From Atherix ibis (Eukaryota > Arthropoda > Insecta > Diptera > Athericidae), in contig OY282606.1 of NCBI GenBank assembly GCA_958298945.1, forward strand, positions 58,913,920-58,977,919: DNA of 64,000 nucleotides. Direction: 5' to 3'. Numbering within the stretch: position 1 is the first letter of the stretch; each line of letters begins with the position of its first letter. A program made the translations under genes and the position numbers. Below, piece after piece: positions 801 to 44,084 of the stretch. The notes under the pieces are model-generated. The model searched no databases and had not been told where the DNA came from. It saw nothing but the letters and a program-made list of their open reading frames with translations.

Positions 801-1745
801 AGACTGATGGATTTTTTACACAAAATGTGTGTTTCATTCAAAAATTAAAAATTTCTAATTTGTAGATTTTGCATTATCATAGACGCCACATTCTTATTAA
901 TTTATAACTTATATTTAATTAAATTGCTATTCATACCCTTAACTTAATGTTTGTAAATAACAAGACATTTTGTCATCAGTACCAAATTTCCAAATAAAAC
1001 TAGTCAAATCCTTGAATTATGGACAATACTTAGCAAATCAGTTACTTTTAGATCAAGTATGTCCCTTTACTGGTTCAGGTATTCGGATTTTTTGCTAAGC
1101 AATATCGGAAAATCTGCTAGTCTTCGCAGCATTATTACTAGCAATTATTATTATTCGCAAATGCGTTCATAACTTCTAAGCGACTGAACTTGAAGGGATG
1201 AAATTTTAAATGCTTAGTCAAGAAGAGTATACAAAAAATAGGCCCTATTCTAGCTGACCACTGTTAAGCTTTTCTAATTGATCCCAAATAAACAAAAAAA
1301 CGTAGCTTCTAATTTTTTTTCACTGCATATGGCTTTTGAAGCTATCAATTTATAACACATACGTGTACACATAGTCAGATTTTGTCATTTTTGGATAAAA
1401 TCTTAACGTCGTCGTTATTTTTATTTGAATGTGTGTTTTGAAATGACCTAGCCATTTCTTTGATTTTTACTGTTATTCTTTAAATTTAAACCATTGTTTT
1501 TTTAAAGTTCATATGCTCCATTCCACTCTATAGCTTATTTATTTATAATAAAATAACCTTTTGTTTAATTTATGTATAAAGATATATTTGGTAAACAAAT
1601 GTTAATACTGTCTGCATTCATCAGAAACAGTCATATATTTTCGCACGTGATCTTTTGATATAATTACAACTAATTGCAACAGCTGAGAATAGAGAGCTAT
1701 CCATCTACCTTCTCCAGGACAAAAATTGAAGTTCTCTTATTGTAT
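801..1745. other. AT-rich intergenic stretch, nothing recognised
   Basis: No open frame with recognisable protein, no repeat ends and no RNA gene were seen. Homopolymer runs and short AT tracts only. Confidence 0.6.
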
Positions 1746-1749
1746 TGTA

Positions 1750-2075
1750 ATTCAATTAGAGTATGTGTGAATTTCGTGATGAAACGAAACATAATTTTAC
1801 GGAATGCAGAGTTTCGTGTGGAATTATTCGTGAATTTTTAGTAGCCCAAATTCAACTGTTTTATTTATGCCTATGCAATAAAAAATTTGCTTTAATATTG
1901 AAGATGATTTTTTGCTTTTGTACAAGAATCCAATCAGAAAATTGTTTATAATGGCCTTTATCTTTCAATTCTTGCACTAATTGAATTTTGTAAGCATGTA
2001 AAAATAAATTATGCTCAGTTATGAACGACGGGAAATTAATGTTGATGCTCCCGAACAGCTTGAATATTTCCAATA
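1750..2075 (-). mobile_element. Tc1/mariner-superfamily transposase fragment
   Basis: The minus strand encodes HAYKIQLVQELKDK (about 1960-2002). This is nearly identical to a segment of the better preserved relative at 19130-19165 (KAYKIQLVQELKPN). Further on it reads IWATKNSRIIPHETLHSVK with one stop, matching the family segment between the first and second catalytic residues. No terminal repeats were identified. It is a truncated dead copy. Confidence 0.65.
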
Positions 2076-2084
2076 ATATTTGGA

Positions 2085-3246
2085 GTTTTTCAGTCTATTT
2101 TGAAAATTCATTCGGTGATACATAATATTTAAGAAAAATGTACTTATTTGACTATGTATATATATATCAATTATAATTTGAAAGTTCATTCAGCATGCTG
2201 AAAATGAACTTCGTAGGCGTGTGTGTTAGAAGGTGGTATTGGATAAGAACTCGTAGTTTTGTTCGGCTTCCCATAAAAACATTATCAAACTTTGCTACTG
2301 ATCTGTAACTATTTTAAATTCTAAATAAACCTTTTCTAATATTGCTTTTTATGTAAATTTATCCATTTTAAAATTTAATACAATTTTGAATATGCAGAGA
2401 AGATTCTATCTACTAATTTTCAGTACTTGAGATTCGAATTAATCAATCCGTACAAATTACATAATATGCTCAATTTGCCATCCGTTACTTTGCTACAGGG
2501 ACCATCGTGTTATGTTATTAGGTCTTAAAAGTATTTCAAATTTAATTGAAGTGATGCTGGGTAATATTACTAATTTAATGCGATAAGTTTTTAATATCCG
2601 GTTGGTACTATAAAAAAAATTGAGTATATTTTTTGAAATCAAGAAAACAGTTTCGATTTATACTTATATACATCATCTGAAGGTATACAATTAATTTGCG
2701 AATGTACACGTACTTGAAAATAGTCCAATAATTAAGTAAGAGTTATAAACAAAAGCATAAAATTTTAGTTTTGATGATCGTTTAATATCATACAGATATA
2801 ATTCAAAATATAAGGGAAGTATGCCAATAATTAATTATTAAATCAAAACTATTGTATTTGAATTAAGAAAAAGTTCAAAAAGTAAATTTATATTTATTTA
2901 GATTAATTTAATTTAAAAAAAGTTTACAGGAAAAATTGCAATTATTAAAGCAAATCTATAGCAAAATATACATGATCCATAAAACATACGTTTTTTGTTT
3001 TACTTTTTACATACTGAATATGAAAATGAAATAGCATGCTCCAGTTTGGAATTAAATTTTAATTTAAAAATTAACATATATTATTTATTTGATAAACTTT
3101 AATTTTTTTAAATATTGTCTTTCTATTGAGTTTGAACAATTTTTTATAAATTAAATTATAAAATATAAACAATTATTTCAATTATTATTATTTTTATGTC
3201 ATTTTTTCAAATACATACACAAAAAAAACATACAAAACTTATACAG
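2085..3246. other. AT-rich noncoding DNA upstream of the first recognised Vha100-1 exon
   Basis: No coding sequence was recognised. The next exon begins in mid-protein behind an acceptor ending at 3246, so this stretch is probably intron of the V-ATPase gene. It holds a short TA run near 2156 and many poly-A/T tracts. Confidence 0.5.
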
Positions 3247-6200
3247 CTTTGTAGCTGGGGTTATATTGCGTGAAAGACTACCGGCATTCGAGAGGATGCT
3301 ATGGCGAGCTTGTCGTGGAAATGTTTTTCTTCGACAGGCAATGATTGAAGCACCACTTGAAGATCCTTCGAACGTAAGATAGAAATACACCGTAATTTAA
3401 TCTAATTGATAATTTAAATATTTTTTTTAAATTTTGTTTTAAAGGGCGATCAAGTTTACAAATCGGTATTCATAATATTCTTTCAAGGAGACCAATTGAA
3501 AACTCGCGTAAAGAAAATTTGCGAAGGTTTCCGTGCAACCTTGTATCCTTGTCCTGAAGCGCCAGCAGATCGGCGGGAAATGGCCATGGGCGTAATGACA
3601 CGAATTGAAGACTTGAATACAGTTTTGGGTCAAACGCAAGATCATCGTCACCGTGTTCTAGTAGCAGCAGCAAAAAATCTCAAAAATTGGTTCGTAAAAG
3701 TACGAAAAATCAAAGCAATTTACCATACTTTGAATCTTTTCAATTTGGATGTTACTCAAAAATGTTTGATTGCTGAATGCTGGGTACCAGTATTGGATAT
3801 TGAAACTATACAGCTGGCTTTGCGTCGTGGAACGGTAATTTTTATTGTTCTTTTATTGTATTATACAGAGTGCGTTTTATGTTCCAGGTCGAATATTTAA
3901 TTAAATAACTTAAATGAAAGCCAATTTTATAATTTATATTTTATAGATTGATTATATGGTCTTTAGTATTATTTTTACACAAGCATGTATTATTCGTATT
4001 ACTCAGCAAGTTTATCAAAATTGCAGATTATGATTACCATCCTCAGTATTAAACTATAACGACGCTCCATTCTTCTTGATTTGACCACTCTACTCTTCTC
4101 AGTGAAGTTTTAGATATCATATACAATATAATCTAAGTAATAAAAAAAACGATAGAAATTGGGTTTGGGCTAGTACTCAAACTTACTCAAATTTGAATTG
4201 CTCTTAGAGTTGTGGCGGTTAGAGTTTAAATTAAAGGATGGTTTTTCTGCTGAAAACGAGACTTAAATTGACTCATTGACAGGATTACAATTTTCAGGAA
4301 TATATACGTAATATGGATAGTTGTTTTTGTAGATATATATTTGAAATCCACGTTTGCGATAGCACAGTACAATTACCAAAGTAAAATTCTGTACATTTAA
4401 AAGGTCACTTCATTATAAGAAGCTTTGATTCGAATTGTTTTAAATTCGTTACAGTAAGTTTGATTTGATGCGCGGATTGATTACCCATTCGTGATATTTA
4501 TTATCAGCATTAACCAACAGGAAGAGGATAAAATTTATTTTTTAAAAGCCTTTGGTTATTCTTTTAGTGTAAATTTAATATTATTTTTTTACGAGTGTGA
4601 CGTAATTTCTGTATAATTGTATGGTACTAGACCTCAAAATTTTGATAAATAGACACTTATAAATATGACACATTAATGAAATGAAATGCAACAAATGTAT
4701 AAAATTAAAACAAATTATTTTTACAAAATAATCCAATACTATTTGATAACCTAATGTGTTAATGTATTAACAGGAACGCTCAGGATCTTCAGTGCAGCCA
4801 ATTCTTAATCGAATGCAGACGTTTGAAAACCCGCCAACGTACAATCGAACGAACAAATTCACAAAAGCATTTCAAGTATTAATCGATGCTTACGGTGTTG
4901 CAAGCTATCGTGAAATGAATCCAGCTCCGTATACAATTATAACATTTCCGTTTTTGTTTGCGGTCATGTTTGGAGATCTCGGTCACGGTATGATAATGGC
5001 TCTGTTTGGATTTTGGATGGTGCTCAAAGAAAAGCCCCTAGCTGCTAAGAAAACTGATAATGAAATTTGGAATATATTCTTTGGTGGTCGATACATTATT
5101 TTCCTAATGGGTTGTTTCTCTATGTATACTGGTATAATCTATAATGATATATTTTCAAAATCACTAAATATATTTGGCACACATTGGCAAATACGATACA
5201 ATACCTCCACGGTAATGGAGAATAAAGTTCTTCAGTTGAATCCGACTACAGATTATATAGATTATCCATACCCATTTGGAATGGATCCAGTATGGCAAGT
5301 TGCACCACTAAATAAAATTATATTCCAAAATGCATACAAGATGAAAATCTCCATCATTTTTGGTGTCGTACATATGATATTTGGTGTAGTTATGAGTCTC
5401 TTTAATCACCGCTACTTTAAAAATCGCATATCGATCATTTTTGAATTTATTCCACAAATAATATTTCTCGTATCCCTATTCTTCTACATGGTTTTAATGA
5501 TGTTCATCAAATGGACAAAATATTCACCCAAATATGAAGGTTAATTCAATTCTATATAATTGCAGTACAGATATATTTATAAATAAATAATATTATTTGA
5601 TTTCAGGACGATTTTCGCCTAATTGTGCGCCATCAATTTTGATTACATTTATCAATATGGTGTTATTTAAGAGTCCGGATGTTAATCCAGATAGTGTTTG
5701 CCAACCGTACATGTTTGCTGGGCAGGCTTTCTTTCAAGTATTTTTTGTAGTAATTGCATTACTGTGTATTCCTTGGATGCTTTTTGGGAAACCTTTTCAT
5801 TTGATGCAACAGCGCAAGAAGACAAATGTACATATCATGGAATTTAAACATAATTGAAGTAAAATTTGTATATAATAATAATAAATTAATTTTTCGCTTT
5901 TAGATGCAACCAATTGTACCAGTCGAAAACGGGGATGCAGAATCGGGTCTAAATAATCCTGATGGTAGTAATATCCACAATGACGCAGGTGGCAATGCTC
6001 CAAATCCGCCTAGCTCACATGATGATGAAAATGAAATGTCAGAGATATTTATACACCAGGGTATACATACAATTGAATACGTCCTCGGGTCAGTTTCACA
6101 TACTGCTTCATATCTTCGACTCTGGGCCCTCTCATTGGCCCATGCGCGTACGTTTTTATAACATTTTTTGAATATATATCAACTTGATAATGTTTGCTTG

Positions 6201-6592
6201 AATTCTATTTTGTATTCATAAAATTTCTTTTTATTACTTACAGAATTGGCTGAAGTTTTGTGGAATATGGTTTTGCAAAACGGCCTTAAGCAGGATCGAT
6301 GGGTTGGTGGTATTATGTTGTGGGCTGTTTTTGCATTTTGGGCTGTGCTAACTGTTGGTATTCTCGTTCTAATGGAAGGTCTATCAGCATTCTTGCATAC
6401 TCTACGTTTACATTGGTAATTGAATTTTATATAAATTTTTTTATAATTGTGTTTCTGTGTATTAATTGAGTTCGATATTTTAGGGTTGAGTTTCAGAGCA
6501 AATTCTACTCTGGATTGGGCTATGCATTTCAACCGTTCTCATTCGAGACTATTCTCGAAAATGGCAGCGCCACTGCCACAACAGAAGATTAA
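3247..6592 (+). CDS. Vha100-1: V-type H+-ATPase 116-kDa subunit a, C-terminal 675 residues (7 exons)
   Basis: Subunit a is the membrane stator of the vacuolar proton pump. It forms the proton half-channels against the c-ring and ties Vo to V1. Exons with GT-AG borders and consistent phase: 3247-3373, 3445-3834, 4774-5539, 5607-5827, 5904-6147, 6244-6415 and 6484-6592 (TAA 6590-6592). Exon 1 starts [20 protein letters not shown]; exon 2 has the cytosolic-domain string [20 protein letters not shown]; exons 3-4 carry hydrophobic segments of the membrane domain. Exon 5 reads [13 protein letters not shown], which contains the arginine that family knowledge says is essential for proton transfer. 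No stop or frameshift is visible. About 170 N-terminal residues are missing and must lie upstream. The fly paralogue assignment (Vha100-1 rather than -2) rests on remembered similarity in exons 1-3. The 3835-4773 intron holds a small transposon end (3866-3985). Confidence 0.93.
3866..3985 (+). mobile_element. Terminal fragment of a small Tc1/mariner-type MITE inside a Vha100-1 intron
   Basis: After a TA dinucleotide the sequence CAGAGTGCGTTTTATGTTCC begins at 3866. It continues with AGGTCGA and about 100 bp that match the starts of the elements at 16557 and 60509, including TTATATGGTCTTTAGTATTA versus TTATATGGTCCTTAGCATTA. No opposite end was found nearby, so this is a solo end. Confidence 0.7.
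3986..4773 (+). other. Remainder of Vha100-1 intron 2
   Basis: AT-rich intron sequence ending in the acceptor TTAACAG at 4767-4773. No other feature recognised. Confidence 0.7.
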
Positions 6593-6791
6593 ACGAATTA
6601 TTATTTATTATGCTTAATTCTATTACATATTAGTAAAAATATATCTATGAATACAAGTAGTCTAAAGTTCTATTATAAAATTATTATATAAATGTTGTAA
6701 ACGTAAATATTTATCATTCTAATATATAAAAAGAAATCTTGCCAATATTTCTTTCATAGGCACAAATGTAATGTTTCGTTAAGAATCATAA

Positions 6792-8345: not shown

Positions 8346-8855
8346 TCATTTTCTCTGAAATCCAACTAACTCGTCTAAGCTCCCGTACAAAGGTTGCATA
8401 TTACCAGTTTTATATTTCTTGAGATTTTGAAATTCAGAAAAAAGCAGTGTCTGTTCTAAATCGTTTACTGTGCAGTAAAACAAATGTTCCTCGGCGTGCA
8501 GTTTCTGAGCGAGTTCGAATTGATGATTGTCCATTAAATCAGTATTTATAACAACTACTAAAGGCTTCAAAGCGCGCAGAACTTCCAGACAACTACCAGC
8601 ACCAGCATGGCTTATCACTAAATCAGCATTTTCAATATCATCCTGTATACTCGGCTTAAGACGATATATTTTTGTAGATATACCTTGGCTATTTAAGAAA
8701 TCAACGTTCATTTTACGACTATTTCCATATTGAATAGTTAAGTTCCTACAACCTTTGTTCGCTAATGCTAACGCCAATTCTTTTGTAGACAATTTGTCTA
8801 AGAGATTATCGAATTCAGTTGTACCGACGGTAACAAAAACATTTTCGAAAGCCAT
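8346..8855 (-). CDS. Alg13: ALG13, UDP-GlcNAc transferase catalytic subunit
   Basis: A single-exon, 169-residue protein. With membrane partner ALG14, ALG13 adds the second GlcNAc to dolichol-PP-GlcNAc on the cytosolic face of the ER, an early step of N-glycosylation. Residues 7-14 (FVTVGTTE) form the family's N-terminal glycine-rich turn. Residues 83-88 (HAGAGS) are the UDP-sugar-binding loop of GT28-type transferases. The frame is intact and the length fits the short, single-domain ALG13 of insects and yeast rather than the long vertebrate form. ATG at 8853-8855 gives MAFENVFVTVG, aligned with the family start. It is convergent with Vha100-1. A CTTAGATTA...TAATCTAAG inverted repeat lies 26 bp upstream of the start codon. 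Confidence 0.93.
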   Translation of the reverse strand: MAFENVFVTVGTTEFDNLLDKLSTKELALALANKGCRNLTIQYGNSRKMNVDFLNSQGISTKIYRLKPSIQDDIENADLVISHAGAGSCLEVLRALKPLVVVINTDLMDNHQFELAQKLHAEEHLFYCTVNDLEQTLLFSEFQNLKKYKTGNMQPLYGSLDELVGFQRK

Positions 8856-8908: not shown

Positions 8909-9166
8909 TCGTTTACAAATTCTTATTGATGTAAATGGCATTTGCAACGTTTTGACAGTTATGACATTTTACCAAAAGCAGTTGCACCATGTTTGTTATT
9001 TAGTAGAGACACATCCCAAGTAACACCAGTTAAGAAAATTAAGCTATTTAACGGCACTCTGACGGCACTATGTTCCGTCATCTAATTACGAATTTGTTAA
9101 AGATGGGTTCAGAAACTGTTCGTTCTTTGTCGCTAAAAGCCGGAACTCAAAAAATTTGTTTGCTTT

Positions 9167-9190
9167 CATGGATGGGTGCACCCATACATG
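9167..9190. repeat. 24-bp near-palindrome in the left foldback end
   Basis: CATGGATGGGTG faces CACCCATACATG. It is the counterpart of the perfect palindrome at 11893-11916 in the right end. A partial second copy follows at about 9200-9226. Confidence 0.7.
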
Positions 9191-9364
9191 TTTGCTTTCA
9201 TGGATGGGTGCACCATGTATGGGTGCCGTCAGTTTCTGACTCTTCATATAGTTAAATATTTTTAATTTTTTTTGTAATCAAATATATTTTTATAAAATTA
9301 AAAAATTAAATTAAATAAAATAGCCTCTTCTAGATATATAACCATATAAAAAACTTAAAACCTA

Positions 9365-10515
9365 TTACATTTCTAAGAACTCGATGTTATCGAACAATTC
9401 GGTGTCCGAAGTAGTTGCACAATGTTGTTATATTTTTTTGTTTTTTTTGGTTATATTGTCTTTTGTGGTATAAAAAAACCTCCTCAAAATTATATTAATA
9501 TCATGTTCCCTAACGAAGGGAAATTTATCCAACGCACAATCTATATTAAAAAATAGTTATTAGTTATGTTATCATAGATTTAAAAATAATTTAGATTATG
9601 CTTACTCTTAATTATTTTTGACACATTCAGATCCTTGAAGCCAATATTTGCCTGCCTCCCATCAAATGTAAATTTGGAGGCCAATTCTTCGGTAAACAAT
9701 ATTTTGCACGTTGCATATAAAAACTTTTTCAATTCTGTTCCCGACTGCTTCATAAAAATATCTATCTGTTGATCAATATATTACATACATTTAAATAATA
9801 AGTTGCAATATCACAAATATGATCATACCAATTCTATTTTCACGTCTTTACTTGCTTCTAAAAGCGATTCATCAAATAGTTTGAATTTATCCAAATTATG
9901 GAATGGGAGTAACAGGTCTGATGCATGATTACGAGTGATTTTGTGTGTAATTTTTAAATTATTATCTCTTAGATGAATGAACTCTTTTAATAAAAAATTT
10001 TGATCGCGTTTAATATCGTCTATGGCCTGTTTCAACTCGTCCCATTCTTTTTTTTCTACAACATATTTTAATGGACATGGTTGAGACAGGATTGGTGTAG
10101 GTTTATCAGGTGGCATTATTTTTACATGTCGTGGTTTTTGTGTTGAGGTAAATGGAACTATTCCACCTAAAATTGATTATTACAGTTAAATAATAAATTA
10201 AAATGTTTCATCCGAACTTTGAAGATATTCAGTGGAATAATGTTGTATTTGTGGAGTGCTGGAGCTTTCTTCTGTTTTAAACAAACTTTGAAGATATTCA
10301 GTGGAATAATGTTGTATTTGTGGAGTGCTGGAGCTTTCTTCTGTTTTATCCAAACTTTCAAGATATTCAATGGAATTGTCGGTTTCAATTATATTACCTT
10401 GCACCGGTATAGGCAAATCAACAAGTGTGAATTCTAGGTTTTTTTTTTTTACTGCACATACTAATTTTCTTTTTATTTCGTTCGCGACTTCCCTTTCGTA
10501 CGCTCTTTTGGACAT
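9365..10515 (-). CDS. DUF4806-like protein encoded in the foldback element, left copy
   Basis: Readable minus-strand exons: exon 1 from ATG 10515 (MSKRAYEREVANEIKRKLVC) to about 10200; exon 2 10166-9829, with WDELKQAIDDIKRDQNF, coiled-coil-like; exon 3 9765-9606, with KFLYATCKILFTEELASKFT and FDGRQANIGFKDLNV; exon 4 from 9540, with FPFVREHDINIILRRFF. Exons 2-4 have good GT-AG borders; the exon 1 donor is unclear. Exons 3-4 resemble, from memory, DUF4806, a small insect domain of unknown function. A one-base difference in the AC-rich tail gives an early stop at 9428 in this copy; the alignable stop is at 9365. Exon 1 holds an in-frame 69-bp tandem repeat (10217-10354). No signal peptide or catalytic motif was seen. 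Its role in the element is unknown. Confidence 0.6.
10217..10354 (-). repeat. 69-bp in-frame tandem duplication in the DUF4806-like gene
   Basis: Two nearly identical 69-bp units (10217-10285, 10286-10354), each coding for 23 residues around TEESSSTPQIQHYSTEYLQS. The right-hand gene copy has only one unit, so the duplication arose in this copy or was lost in the other. Confidence 0.85.
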
Positions 10516-10552
10516 TTTCCTTCTAATAATATTATTATTTATTATATATTTT

Positions 10553-10821
10553 AATTCTAATAATATAGTTTAATTAATATAATGTACTATTACGTTTCTT
10601 TATTTTACGCACGAGAAAAACTTGTCGCCGCAACATTCAATTCGCAATTGGTTATTTCACAACTAATAGAAATGAAAATTTACAATTCTAATAATATAAT
10701 TTAATTATAATATAATGTACTATTACGTTTCTTTATTTTACGCACGAGGAAAACTTGTGTCGCCGCAACATTCAATTAGCAATTGGTTATTTTGACAACT
10801 AATAGAAATGTAAATTTACAA
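10553..10821. repeat. Direct duplication of the 5' region of the DUF4806-like gene
   Basis: 10553-10683 and 10684-10821 are two diverged copies of one ~131-138-bp segment. Shared strings include TGTACTATTACGTTTCTTTA and TCGCCGCAACATTCAATT. It lies just upstream of the left gene's start codon, so it may duplicate its promoter. Confidence 0.85.
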
Positions 10822-10971
10822 TACATTCACACTAAATTCATTTCGAGTTCAGTTAGTTCCGTCATTCAAGTCCATAGACGACACTCATTCGTAATACGAC
10901 ATAATCCTGAACTAAGAGCCGTCAGACGTAACAAAAACGGAACTCATTGACGGAACTTATTGAATGAGTTC
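10822..10971. other. Centre of the foldback element
   Basis: Unique spacer between the two arms. It contains GTTCCGTCATTCAAG and GACGGAACTTATTGAATGAG, echoing the TTCCGTCAT motif of the element ends. This could be a shared bidirectional promoter or a relic of the original left terminus. Confidence 0.4.
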
Positions 10972-11069
10972 CGTGCGTAAAAAAAAGAAACGTAATAGTA
11001 CATTATATTAATTAAACTATATTATTAGAATTAAAATATATAATAAATAATAATATTATTAAAAGGAAA

Positions 11070-11600
11070 ATGTCCAAAAGAGCGTACGAAAGGGAAGTCG
11101 CGAACGAAATAAAAAGAAAATTAGTATGTGCAGTAAAAAAAAACAACATAGAATTCACACTTGCTGATTTGCGTATACCGGTGCAAGGTAATATAATTGA
11201 AACCGACAATTCCATTGAATATCTTGAAAGTTTGGATAAAACAGAAGAAAGCTCCAGCACTCCACAAATACAACATTATTCCACTGTTATTTACATTTGA
11301 TGGGAGGCAGGGAAATATTGGCTTCAAGGACCTGAATGTGTCAAAAATAATGAAGAGTAAGCATAATCTAAATTATTTTTAAATCTATGATAACATAACT
11401 AATAACTATTTTTTAATATAGATTGTGCATTGGATAAATTTCCCTTCGTTAGGGAAGATGATATAAATAAAATTTTGAGGAGGTTTTTTTATACCGCAAA
11501 AGACAATATATCCAAAAAAACCAAAAAAAAAGAACAACATTGTGCAACTACTTCGGACACCGAATTGTTCGATGACATCGAGTTCCTAGAAATTGAATAG
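11070..11600 (+). pseudogene. DUF4806-like gene, right copy, internally deleted
   Basis: Exon 1 begins at ATG 11070 (MSKRAYEREVANEIKRKLVC, identical start to the left copy). At about 11284-11290 it is fused directly to exon 3 (FTFDGRQGNIGFKDLNV), removing all of exon 2 and shifting the frame to a stop at 11300. The exon 3-4 intron is kept. Exon 4 is in better shape than on the left and runs FPFVREDDINKILRRFF to a C-terminus ending DIEFLEIE and TAG 11598-11600. The two copies are therefore complementary broken versions of one gene. Confidence 0.7.
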
Positions 11601-11731
11601 GTTTTAAGTTTTTTATATGGTTATATAGCTAGAAGAGGCTATTTTATTTAATTTTTTGTTATTAATTTTTTAATGTTATGAAAATATATTTGATTACAAA
11701 AAAAATTAAAAATATTTAACTATAATGAAGA

Positions 11732-12124
11732 CCCAAGTAACGCAAGCTACGAAAATAAAGCTATTTAACGGCACTCTGACGGAACTCTGTTCCGTCATAT
11801 AATTACGAATTTGTTCAAGATGGGTTCAGAAACGGTTCAGAAACTGTTGGTGCTTTGTCGCTACAAGCCGGAACTCGAAAATTTTTTGCTTTCATGTATG
11901 GGTGCACCCATACATGCAATTTCATGTATGAATGCACCCATACATGAAAGCAAACTAATTGTTTGAGCATCGGCTTTCACAGACAAAGAACGAACAGTTT
12001 CTGAACCGTTTCTGAACCGTTTCTGAACCCATCTTGAACAAATTGGTAATCATATGACGGAACACAGTTTCGCCAGAGTGCCGTTAAATACCATAATTTC
12101 CGTAACTGGTGTTACTTGGGATGT
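11732..12124. repeat. Self-complementary right terminus (solo foldback unit)
   Basis: ACCCAAGTAACGCAAGCTAC at the start and the reverse complement of ACATCCCAAGTAACACCAGT at the end bracket 393 bp. It can fold on itself around the palindromes at 11893-11916 and 11923-11946. It contains two (11823-11846) and three (11995-12030) head-to-tail copies of an 11-bp unit, GTTCAGAAACG in one orientation. Confidence 0.8.
11893..11916. repeat. Perfect 24-bp palindrome
   Basis: CATGTATGGGTG followed by its exact reverse complement. A second, near-perfect copy (two changes) lies at 11923-11946. Confidence 0.9.
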
Positions 12125-13125: not shown

Positions 13126-13158
13126 CTTAGATTAAAGAATACCTGGATAGGCCCCTAC
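13126..13158. repeat. Left arm of a 33-bp inverted repeat around the THAP gene
   Basis: CTTAGATTAAAGAA then CTGGATAGGCC and CTAC. The reverse complement of 15286-15318 matches at 30 of 33 positions. The two arms enclose 2193 bp containing the whole THAP gene. No flanking target-site duplication was found. Confidence 0.8.
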
Positions 13159-13677
13159 CGTATATGTATACACATTTTTTTGTCCAAATTATTAGAAAGG
13201 GATATTCTTGTCAAAAATTTTTTATGTAGACATGACACCCACTGCCATCTAGTTGTCGTAATAGAAATTTATTGAATTGCAAAAGAATAATTTATATTCA
13301 TTTTAATTCACTTATTGGAAACAAAAATACAATTTAAAAAAAACAATAGGCAATTTTTATTTTTTGAGCAATCTTTTGATACGAAATGGAATTCTATTTG
13401 TAGTTTACTATTCATTTCGTAAATATGAATCAAATATAAAGCTCCTCAATTTTGTAGACTTTAGCAAAGTTTTCAAACGCGCCATTCTCCATGAAAGTAG
13501 TGACATACCGAAAATAGTGGGCTATAATTTTCATTTCTCAAGTTGTTTTTTTGCGGTTCGGAACGTGATTGTAAAAGTGTTAGTTCCATCTCTTTAGAAG
13601 TATTTACGGAAAAGTAAGTATTTATACAAATAGTTATATTATTAATAAAAGTTAATAAGAAGTTTTTATTTCAGGAA

Positions 13678-29165: not shown

Positions 29166-30394
29166 ATATAATAACTTAAAAATGCGGGATTTTTGGCAAA
29201 CTTGAGTGTTTATTTTGAAAAATTGTTACAATATATTTTATTCAAAGTATTGTCCATCGGAAGCCACTACTTTTTCCCATCTTTCTGGCAACATATGGAT
29301 TCCGCACCAAAAAAACTGCTCCGGTTTTGAGGCCAAGAATGAATCGAGCCAATTTTTGATGCCGTGTTCTGAAGTGAAGCGTATTCCGGTGAGGGCGTTT
29401 TGCATGGATCTAAACAAATGGTAGTCGGACGGGGCAAGGTCTGGGCTATAAGGCGGGTGAGGCAAAACTTCCCAGCCACTGTTTTCTAAATAATTTTTAA
29501 CCGGTCTTGCAACATGAGGCCGAGCGTTGTCATGATGGAAAATTATGGCTTCGTGTCTGGTCGCATATTCCGGGCGTTTTTCGGCCAATGCTCGCTTCAA
29601 ACGGATTAATTGTGTTCGGTAGAGGTCGCCTGTGATCGTCTGGCCCAATTTCAATAGCTCATAATAAATCACACCCTTCTGATCCCACCAAATACAGAGC
29701 ATTACCTTGGCGCCATGGATATTTGGCTGGTTGGCCGGGCTTCCCATACGATTTTTTGCGCTTTGGGTTGTCGTAATGAATCCATTTTTCGTCGCCAGTA
29801 ATGATTCGATTCAAAAACGACTTCGTTTGCTGCCTTTCAACGTCTCTTGGCTTCAATTCATATGGGACCCAATTTCCTTGCTTTTGGATGAATCCTGCTG
29901 GTTTCAAACGTTTTGAAATGGCTGCTTGAGTGACTCCTATTGATTTTGCAATTTCTTCTTGAGTTCGACAACAGTCTTCGTCGAGTAATGCCTCCAAATC
30001 TTCATCTTCAAACTTTTTTGGCTGACCTGGTCGTTCTTTGTCTTCCGTGTCAAAATCACCACTTCTGAACCGCACAAACCATCTCTCGCACGTTGAAATC
30101 GATGGAACATATTCAGGATAAGCTTCGGTGAGCAATCGATGTGCTTCAGCTGCACTTTTTTTCAAATTGAAGAAGTAAATCAACACTTCCCGCAAATGGG
30201 ACTTTTTTGGTACGAAATTCGACATTTTTGAAGCAAAAAAAAACTTTGTTGTTTACACTATTTCGTTCAATGACTAATCGAGAATGAATGACAGATGTTT
30301 AACCTCCAAAATGCCATATGAGTTATTATTAACACAAACCATGTGTAAAAGTTATGCCATCTGTTGTCAATCCCGCATTTTTAAGTTATACACT
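29166..30394 (-). mobile_element. Mariner element, 1.23 kb, one frameshift and an internal deletion
   Basis: A 20-bp perfect inverted repeat (ATAACTTAAAAATGCGGGAT at 29171-29190 and the complement at 30370-30389) lies just inside TA dinucleotides at 29164-29165 and 30395-30396. The transposase starts at 30225 (MSNFVPKKSHLREVLIYFFN) with helix-turn-helix LLTEAYPEYVPSISTCERWF and first catalytic Asp in TGDEKWIHYDNPK. A frame change near 29700-29750 follows, then 29747-29238 has MLCIWWDQKGVIYYELL, FHHDNARPHVA, PPYSPDLAPSDYHLF and WEKVVASDGQYFE. About a dozen codons are missing between VERQQ and TKSFLNR. Otherwise well preserved, so a young, dead copy. Confidence 0.9.
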
Positions 30395-42787: not shown

Positions 42788-44084
42788 CGAAGGTCGTTCA
42801 ATAAGTCCTTAGAAAAAGACGGAAAAAACTGTTTTAAAAAAAAAATTTTTTTTATTTTTGAACATAATCTCCTTTTAGCTCTATACATTTTTCCAACCGT
42901 TTTTCCAAAATTTTTATCCCGTCCAAAAAATAGGATTTCGGAAGTTCTGCAAAATACTCATCCGTTTGAGCAATGACGTCCTCGTTGGAAGTGAACCGTC
43001 GTCCGCCAAGCCATTTCTTCAGATTGGGGAAAAGAAAATAATCACTTGGGGCCAAATCTGGTGAATAAGCGGGATGCTGCAACAATTCCATTCTCAATTC
43101 CACAATTTTGGTCATGGAAACAGTGCAGGTGTGCACACGCGCATTGTCCTGATGCAAGAGGATTTTTTTCTCCTTCAGATGGAGGCGTTTCTCTTTGATT
43201 TCCTCGCTCAACCGTTGCAATAACGACGCGTAATACGCTCCTGTTATTGTTTTTCCGTGGCCAACCGTTGCAATTATGACGTGTAATACGCTCCTGTAAT
43301 CCCAAAAAACCGTGGCCATCACCTTGCCGGCCGATGGCACAGTTTTTGCCTTCTTCGGAGCCCGTTCACCCTTGAAAATCCACTGTGATGACTGCCTCTT
43401 CGTTTCTGGAGTGTAGTAGTGTATCCAGGTTTCGTCCACAGTGACATATCGACGAAGGAATTCGGCAGGATTGCGATGAAAGAGTGCCAACATAGCCTCA
43501 GAGTCCACTACACGATTGCGCTTATTCTCCTCTGAGAGCAAACGCGGCACCCATCTTGCCGAAATTTTTTTCACAGACAATTTTTCATGCAAAATTGAAG
43601 CGACTGTACCTTGTGATATGCCCGTGGCCTCAACTAATTCGCGCACTTTAATTCGCCAATCGTTCAAAATCAGATCGTGGATTTTGTCGATGATTTCAGG
43701 AGTAGACACCTCAACTGGGCGTCGTGAACGATGTTCATCTTTTGTGGATGAACGGCCACGTTTAAATTCATTCACCCAATTGTAAACCGTCGCAAACACA
43801 GGTGCAGATGTGCCATGAACTGTATCCAACTCGGCTTTGATTTCTTTCGGGCTTAAGCCTTTCAAATGGAGATGTTTGATGACAGCCCTAAACTCACTTT
43901 TTTCCATTGTTATGCGCAAATAAATTTCGTCAACTTTAATCAACGATAGAAATTAACCTACGTTATGGATCGAGCTGAAATTTTGACAGCTTTCCTGTCG
44001 ATAATGCTAGTTACAAAAAAAGTCTTTACGGACACTACGAGCGCAATTTCTCGGATTTTCTAAGGACTCATTGAACGACCCTCG
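42788..44084 (-). mobile_element. Full-length mariner (1297 bp) nested in the reverse transcriptase gene
   Basis: Flanked by TA at 42786-42787 and 44085-44086. Termini CGAAGGTCGTTCAATAAGTC (left) and CGAGGGTCGTTCAATGAGTC (right, read inward) match closely over about 30 bp. Removing it with one TA joins the RT frame (GVFLNI with SQAFDRVW). It is the best-preserved element of the window. Confidence 0.95.
42852..43907 (-). CDS. Mariner transposase, uninterrupted (351 aa)
   Basis: A cut-and-paste DD34D transposase. ATG at 43907 (MEKSEFRAVIKHLHLKGLSP) is preferred to upstream codons because the mariner N-terminal helix starts there. Domains: helix-turn-helix 1 about residues 1-55, linker RRPVEVSTPEI, helix-turn-helix 2 (VRELVEATGISQGTVASILH). 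Then catalytic Asp in VTVDETWIHYYTPETK, second Asp in LLHQDNARVHTCT and third in PAYSPDLAPSDYFLFPNLKK. Length is at the family norm (about 345-350). Odd: the segment after FWDYRSVLHVII looks altered (HVIIATVGHGKTITGAYYAS) and the DNA there repeats AATACGCTCCTGT, so activity is uncertain although no stop is present. Confidence 0.92.
   Translation of the reverse strand: MEKSEFRAVIKHLHLKGLSPKEIKAELDTVHGTSAPVFATVYNWVNEFKRGRSSTKDEHRSRRPVEVSTPEIIDKIHDLILNDWRIKVRELVEATGISQGTVASILHEKLSVKKISARWVPRLLSEENKRNRVVDSEAMLALFHRNPAEFLRRYVTVDETWIHYYTPETKRQSSQWIFKGERAPKKAKTVPSAGKVMATVFWDYRSVLHVIIATVGHGKTITGAYYASLLQRLSEEIKEKRLHLKEKKILLHQDNARVHTCTVSMTKIVELRMELLQHPAYSPDLAPSDYFLFPNLKKWLGGRRFTSNEDVIAQTDEYFAELPKSYFLDGIKILEKRLEKCIELKGDYVQK

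Follow-up and report, generated by a model that had tools for sequence, protein, structure and literature searches.

A foldback element of Atherix ibis as a probable derivative of an animal CACTA-type (TRC) transposon with a DUF4806-like second gene

INTRODUCTION

The closest described systems to the element studied here are the animal TRC elements, among them SmTRC1 of Schistosoma and elements of Tribolium and Aedes. In the available text of their description, these transposons start with CCC, make 2-bp target duplications and, like the family reported below, lack the CACTA core of plant elements (PMC1636069). Their printed ends include CCCTAGTAGCACCG in Tribolium and CCCAGTCAAC in Aedes, and SmTRC1 has alternatively spliced short and long products that were likened to TnpA and TnpD of Spm (PMC1636069). 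The printed end of the Hydra element Spongebob/EnSpm-4N1_HM is CCCAGCCAACATTGAC (PMC4298943). Here, we analyze a 3.1-kb foldback element in the 669.8-Mb genome of the fly Atherix ibis, which lies within a stretch of 64,000 nucleotides (assembly GCA_958298945.1, contig OY282606.1, positions 58,913,920 to 58,977,919; hereafter, the window). Its exact ends are at positions 9015, which reads CCCAAGTAACACCAG, and 12120, which reads CTGGTGTTACTTGGG, and it has AT/AT flanks. From sequence comparisons we conclude, with high confidence, that it derives from an animal CACTA-type (TRC) transposon and is non-autonomous.

The family to which this element belongs shares with the animal TRC elements the CCC ends (CCCAAGTAACACCAG and CCCAAGTAGCACCG), the 2-bp duplication and a CACTA-type transposase, the likeness to SmTRC1 being one of description. 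Since it has the ends and duplications of the published animal elements, we class it as a TRC element. It differs from them in that one end is a 389-bp hairpin and in that the copy in the window is a head-to-head fusion. Its second protein is DUF4806-like, whereas the second proteins of SmTRC1 are described, in the available text, as not detectably conserved (PMC1636069). As in maize En/Spm, with its TnpA and TnpD, one transcription unit gives a long transposase and a short spliced product (predicted in our family), and short motifs are repeated in both orientations near the ends (described in part in PMC1636069). The two differ in their ends, CACTA in maize and CCC here, and in the family of the second protein. 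Drosophila FB elements have long inverted repeats, arrays of short tandem repeats and no internal transposase. The window element likewise has long inverted repeats and no transposase inside, but its repeats are two gene-bearing units instead of tandem arrays, and termini inverted head to head or as repeat arrays are not the normal form of its family, in which a typical copy is one unit whose A- and B-type ends differ.

RESULTS

A family of elements with 2-bp target duplications

A genome search with the left 290 bp of the element gave at least 107 scored alignments (the best 40 of 273 candidates were scored), which bears out the expectation of the initial annotation, made from the sequence of the window, that this is a mobile element with further copies sharing its ends. 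For comparison, 43 loci were fetched (numbered with L). The family ends are CCCAAGTAAC...GTTACTTGGG. Single units, such as L026, L027, L020 and L016, have two unlike ends, an A-end that starts with CCCAAGTAACGCACTCGGAACTC and a B-end formed by the 389-bp hairpin that terminates in CTGGTGTTACTTGGG. The flanking 2 bp are identical in 19 of the 20 elements with both ends set (three listed rows without one or both set ends were left out, and one of the 20, L043, is of a second family), the exception being L017 (TT/GT). These duplications consist of A and T in 18 of 19 cases; that of L019 is CT. The empty site, i.e., the flanks minus one duplication, has an exact match at another locus for L037, L028 and L043, and a match with 2 to 7 mismatches for L018, L025, L034 and L019. 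Matching flanks and empty sites together indicate that these are real cut-and-paste insertions with 2-bp duplications. Targets tend to read CAC-WW-GTG, with C at position -5 in 19 of 40 half-sites (P uncorrected, and some of the insertions lie within related repeats).

The ends read CCCAAG, and the plant core CACTA was not found at the very ends. Some copies seemed to have it by virtue of a flanking CAC; we rejected this assignment because the CAC varies and thus reflects target preference. Ends of the piggyBac, hAT, Tc1/mariner and Harbinger types were ruled out by the 2-bp duplication and the homology of the transposase.

Several loci show particular arrangements of these elements. Two single family units stand tail to tail, 36 bp apart and each with TA flanks, at L024 (4514 to 4551). 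Two B-ends abut directly as GTTACTTCCCAAGTAAC at L005 (1740 to 1800; equal to L012 near 4241), with one GGG missing, which resembles a flawed end-to-end joint. At L032 (about 762), a copy lies inside exon 3 of another copy, a self-insertion judging from its flank. Finally, another inverted-repeat transposon (ends ...AGCTGTATTCCATTGGA...) borders L015, L019 and L023 as a recurrent insertion host and gave an exact empty site.

A transposase in a predicted intron of the second gene

The L039 and L040 copies share a subfamily module (98.7% identity over 1877 bp), and a genome search with it yielded 158 matches. Long frames contain two of these, one in L041 (681 amino acids) and one in L013 (575 amino acids). 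The L041 element extends from 1307 to 6665 (5359 bp) between TA/TA flanks. One ATG, at 1647, is the start codon both of the DUF4806-like gene described below, in exon 1, and of a frame that continues for 663 codons, with full-length homology to animal CACTA-type (TRC) transposases (PF02992 is present in 2 of 120 among the matches listed, numbered with P). Exon 2 of the DUF4806-like gene starts 2139 bp beyond the donor of exon 1, and the transposase body would therefore be an intron of the second gene. Downstream, exons 2 to 4 and the B-end are repeated in tandem. The other long frame, in L013 (98.2% identity to L041 over 1610 bp), runs into exon 3 of the second gene. Hence, the first exon is likely common to both products, with alternative splicing leading to the DUF4806-like protein. 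In the window and in similar copies, intron 1 measures 231 bp, which indicates that an internal deletion took out the transposase.

A search of the genome with the Pfam DUF4806 profile (PF16064) gave one place over the cut-off, L043, with 25.7 bits (best 10 candidates scored; one exon scores 21.2 bits). L043 has ends CCCAAGTAGCAC and GTGCTGCTTGGG and TA/TA flanks, and it sits within a tandem repeat, the remaining units of which match its empty site exactly. Both a DUF4806 gene (plus strand) and a convergent TRC-type transposase, 32% identical to that of L041 (E 5e-66), lie between its ends; no clear subterminal motif was found in L043. In a spider protein, P0020, a transposase is joined to PF16064 (36.9 bits). 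Two more of the 120 matches listed, P0025 and P0088, are named DUF4806 proteins; the Pfam scan finds no such domain in them. Since L041 and L043 both pair the two genes and P0020 fuses the two domains, the DUF4806-like gene is most likely a native second gene of the transposon and not its cargo.

The DUF4806-like protein

The left gene copy of the window element (minus strand) has four exons, with coordinates derived from the splice sites, and an open spliced frame of 242 amino acids; a second copy lies in the right arm:

9428..9540, minus strand: left gene, exon 4 with the stop
9606..9765, minus strand: left gene, exon 3, DUF4806-like part (splice sites; Pfam)
9829..10166, minus strand: left gene, exon 2, encoding the coiled-coil-like part and the beginning of the DUF4806-like part
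10167..10397, minus strand: left gene, intron 1, 231 bp (the L041 equivalent, 2139 bp, holds the transposase body)
10398..10515, minus strand: left gene, exon 1 (in L041, common to the DUF4806-like protein and the transposase)
11070..11187, plus strand: right gene, exon 1
11289..11356, plus strand: right gene, remnant of exon 3, with exon 2 deleted upstream
11422..11600, plus strand: right gene, exon 4

The splice sites of the left gene are CAAG/GTAATA...TTTTAG/G, TTG/GTATG...CAACAG/A and AAGA/GTAAGC...ATATAG/A, and the GT-AG sites are conserved. The spliced frame is open in 7 of the 10 copies having all splice sites (L009, L011 and L018 are frameshifted in exon 1), and exons 2 to 4 are open in 9 of 10. 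A splice model with exon 1 read to its own stop left DUF4806 unmatched and gave just HTH_Tnp_Tc5, with 15.9 bits (cut-off, 22.2); the donor CAAG/GTAATA restored DUF4806.

DUF4806 is the sole Pfam family matched at E<=10 by the spliced protein of the left copy, with 13.8 bits (E 0.076, residues 127 to 199 on profile positions 8 to 81). Other copies score 11.6 (the L039/L040 variant protein), 12.9 (L041) and 14.7 bits (L023), and the Pfam cut-off is 25 bits. We write "DUF4806-like" because the score is under the cut-off and BLASTP and phmmer are blind to the match; the initial annotation, which had spoken of a DUF4806-like gene, was right as to the type of match, which is weak for this family. 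DUF4806 is termed a BEN subtype in the available text of PMC11075544. Like proteins of this type, that of the window family has a coiled-coil-like stretch followed by a DUF4806-like region, which covers positions 8 to 81 of the 90 in the profile. Unlike canonical DUF4806 proteins, it lacks the N-terminal part seen in L043 and P0020, and its score is below the cut-off. In the structure model of P0020, the predicted local distance difference test (pLDDT) of the DUF4806 part is mostly under 50 to 65, and a homologue search with the tail of this protein gave nothing at E<=1e-3.

The foldback and its origin

Three inverted arm pairs, all far above chance, bear out the near-symmetrical inverted foldback of the initial annotation: 9011 to 9121 with 12014 to 12124 (88% identity), 9289 to 9673 with 11289 to 11673 (94%) and 10299 to 10613 with 10972 to 11286 (98%). 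The annotated span, 9011 to 12124, held as a foldback and is slightly too wide, the surplus over the exact ends being the putative 2-bp duplication plus two symmetric bases. As already remarked there, no transposase is visible inside: we found no such frame between the ends. The two gene copies also proved real as a spliced gene in both arms, but they are not equal, since the right one lacks exon 2 and part of exon 3 (the equivalent of about 9673 to 10299 is gone) and is therefore broken. At the right end the 389-bp hairpin is complete, with a folding energy of -146.9 kcal/mol (z, -28 relative to 100 shuffled sequences), and the left end retains only the outer half of the terminal palindrome. 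Apart from the genes, the element and its borders comprise:

9013..9014, no strand: left copy of the putative 2-bp target duplication (AT), a 2-bp match that can be chance
9015..9214, minus strand: B-type end at the left terminus, with the terminal palindrome reduced to its outer half, beginning CCCAAGTAACACCAG
10684..10971, minus strand: promoter region of the left unit and its A-type end, which is truncated and lacks the terminal CCCAAGTAACGC; GAGTKCCGTC-type repeats are present
10972..10977, no strand: head-to-head junction CGTGCG, in both parental sequences or nearly so
11732..12120, plus strand: B-type end at the right terminus, with the whole 389-bp palindrome and GAGTKCCGTC-type repeats
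12121..12122, no strand: right copy of the putative 2-bp target duplication (AT)

The nearest copies differ by half: L033 for the left gene (96.2%), L021 for the right gene (92.3%) and L039 for the right B-end (99.2%). The halves meet at CGTGCG, where the A-end tip of the left unit is lost. Two copies were thus fused head to head. Among the 43 fetched loci the junction occurs at L029 alone, which is the window's own place, and so a copy of this family is not normally a foldback. The same evidence would suit another history, which we regard as tentative and somewhat short of even odds: the foldback may not be a mobile unit, and two opposite single insertions lying side by side may have been joined by a deletion. 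The different nearest copies of the halves (L033, L039 and L021) and the junction that none of the other loci share agree with such a history, as do the opposite units 36 bp apart in L024 and an AT/AT flank that can be chance. However, the element has an intact B-type end at either outer terminus, its 2-bp flanks match and its target is of the preferred type (CAC-AT-GT), an outcome that two independent insertions need not give; the fused form may thus have transposed by means of its two B-ends.

Subterminal repeats and the role of the second protein

L041 has 15 copies of the motif GTKCCG (longer form, GAGTKCCGTC), whereas the expected number is 1.31 (standard deviation, 1.12; maximum, 5; 200 shuffles). 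Four of these copies lie in the initial 170 bp, 7 in the final 370 bp and 4 in the internal B-end repeat, with 0 in the 1930-bp transposase stretch. Four other elements, including that of the window, have 10 to 15 against 0.44 to 0.92 expected, so that the motif is present in 5 of the 5 elements tested. Subterminal repeats of this kind are what a TnpA-like protein would bind, hence the role that we propose by analogy: the chances are about even that the DUF4806-like protein is a TnpA-like binder of the GAGTKCCGTC repeats close to the two ends. The initial annotation had guessed at DNA binding or a part in mobilization, a guess that our analysis supports.

The second protein could instead be a dominant-negative repressor kept by deletion copies and not a transposition helper. 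The gene is kept open in 7 of 10 copies and has its exon 1 in common with the transposase, as is the case for truncated products of other transposons. We nevertheless think this unlikely, since the gene is conserved both next to the transposase in L041 and in another family, which points to a function for the element itself. Moreover, the two roles are not exclusive, and maize TnpA has both, according to the available text of PMC1636069. Far less probable still is a reading along the lines of the initial annotation, in which a cellular-type host gene was captured as cargo of a foldback element and is unrelated to the transposase: the window copy by itself lacks a transposase, and several animals have DUF4806 proteins annotated as ordinary genes, according to the available texts of PMC11075544 and PMC11445403, but the gene and the transposase of L041 share exon 1 inside one pair of ends, L043 shows the same pairing in a different family, and the genome's one place over the DUF4806 cut-off, among the best 10 candidates scored, is inside L043. 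A capture in deep time, followed by fixation in an ancestral TRC element, may have occurred.

Surroundings of the element

An open frame on the minus strand (8346 to 8855), which we take to be Alg13-like, comes to within about 160 bp of the element's left end. The window also has two transposase frames (29238 to 30225 and 42852 to 43943), presumably mariner-like, and a repeat at 13126 to 13498 that is common to many of the fetched loci. A scan of the window with Rfam gave 0 matches.

DISCUSSION

We propose that the foldback is a TRC derivative with a nested second gene, a TnpA-like helper and a head-to-head fusion in its history, an explanation to which we give, as a whole, a probability of about 0.83. 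The parent, of the L041 type, would have one promoter and one first exon, and straight reading would produce a RAG1-like DDE transposase. Splicing from the exon-1 donor across the transposase to exons 2 to 4 would produce a small protein with a coiled coil and a DUF4806-like (BEN-type) part. The transposase would cut at the CCC ends, leaving the 2-bp target duplication. The DUF4806-like protein might bind the GAGTKCCGTC repeats clustered at the ends and aid synapsis, repress the promoter, or both, as does TnpA of maize Spm. Internal deletions would then have removed the transposase and kept the second gene, and the resulting copies may have moved in trans. Two such deletion copies, nearest to different members of the family, would have fused head to head at a short shared sequence, creating an element in which both ends are of the B type and which may have remained mobile.

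These results should be interpreted with some caution, since several observations weigh against parts of this explanation. The AT/AT flank of the window element has odds of about 1 in 8 of arising by chance at the local base composition. The signal of selection is slight: pN/pS is below 1 in 32 of 35 defined pairs, with few changes. All DUF4806 matches of the window family, from 11.6 to 14.7 bits, are below the curated cut-off. Profile comparison with the DUF4806 part of P0020 gave P 0.00097, and 0.00016 when L043 was added, with program probabilities of 22% and 51%, respectively; BLASTP and phmmer comparisons of the window-family protein with P0020 left this part unmatched. A database search for homologues of the spliced protein gave nothing at E<=1e-3. 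As for the transposase, the L041 and L013 frames have 0 Pfam matches at E<=10, and PF02992 scores in the rescanned relatives are below the cut-off of 28.6 bits (P0012, 24.3; P0036, 16.8; L043, 12.9). Finally, the transposase of L043 is broken up into three frames and faces the DUF4806 gene of this element in convergent orientation, with no nesting.

In the literature searched, which excludes Repbase and most subscription journals, we found no link of DUF4806 to CACTA or TRC elements, no second product described as DUF4806-like and no nesting of such a gene around the transposase. We consider it an even bet that arthropod DUF4806 (BEN-subtype) proteins either act as a TnpA-like accessory protein of TRC/CACTA elements or descend from one, and perhaps this also applies to the DUF4806 genes that are expanded in Hydra and fish; here, the transposase body would lie in intron 1 of the accessory gene, and elements that lose the transposase could persist on that gene alone.

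If this is true, DUF4806, a widespread domain of unknown function, acquires a biological setting and a function that can be tested. Expansions of DUF4806 genes in particular lineages, such as those in the available texts on Hydra (PMC7642931) and on an ambrosia beetle (PMC13270666), may then be transposons. Animal CACTA elements would be two-protein systems comparable to plant En/Spm, despite accessory proteins that look unrelated, and the model of a RAG1-like transposase would place a natural two-protein relative beside RAG.
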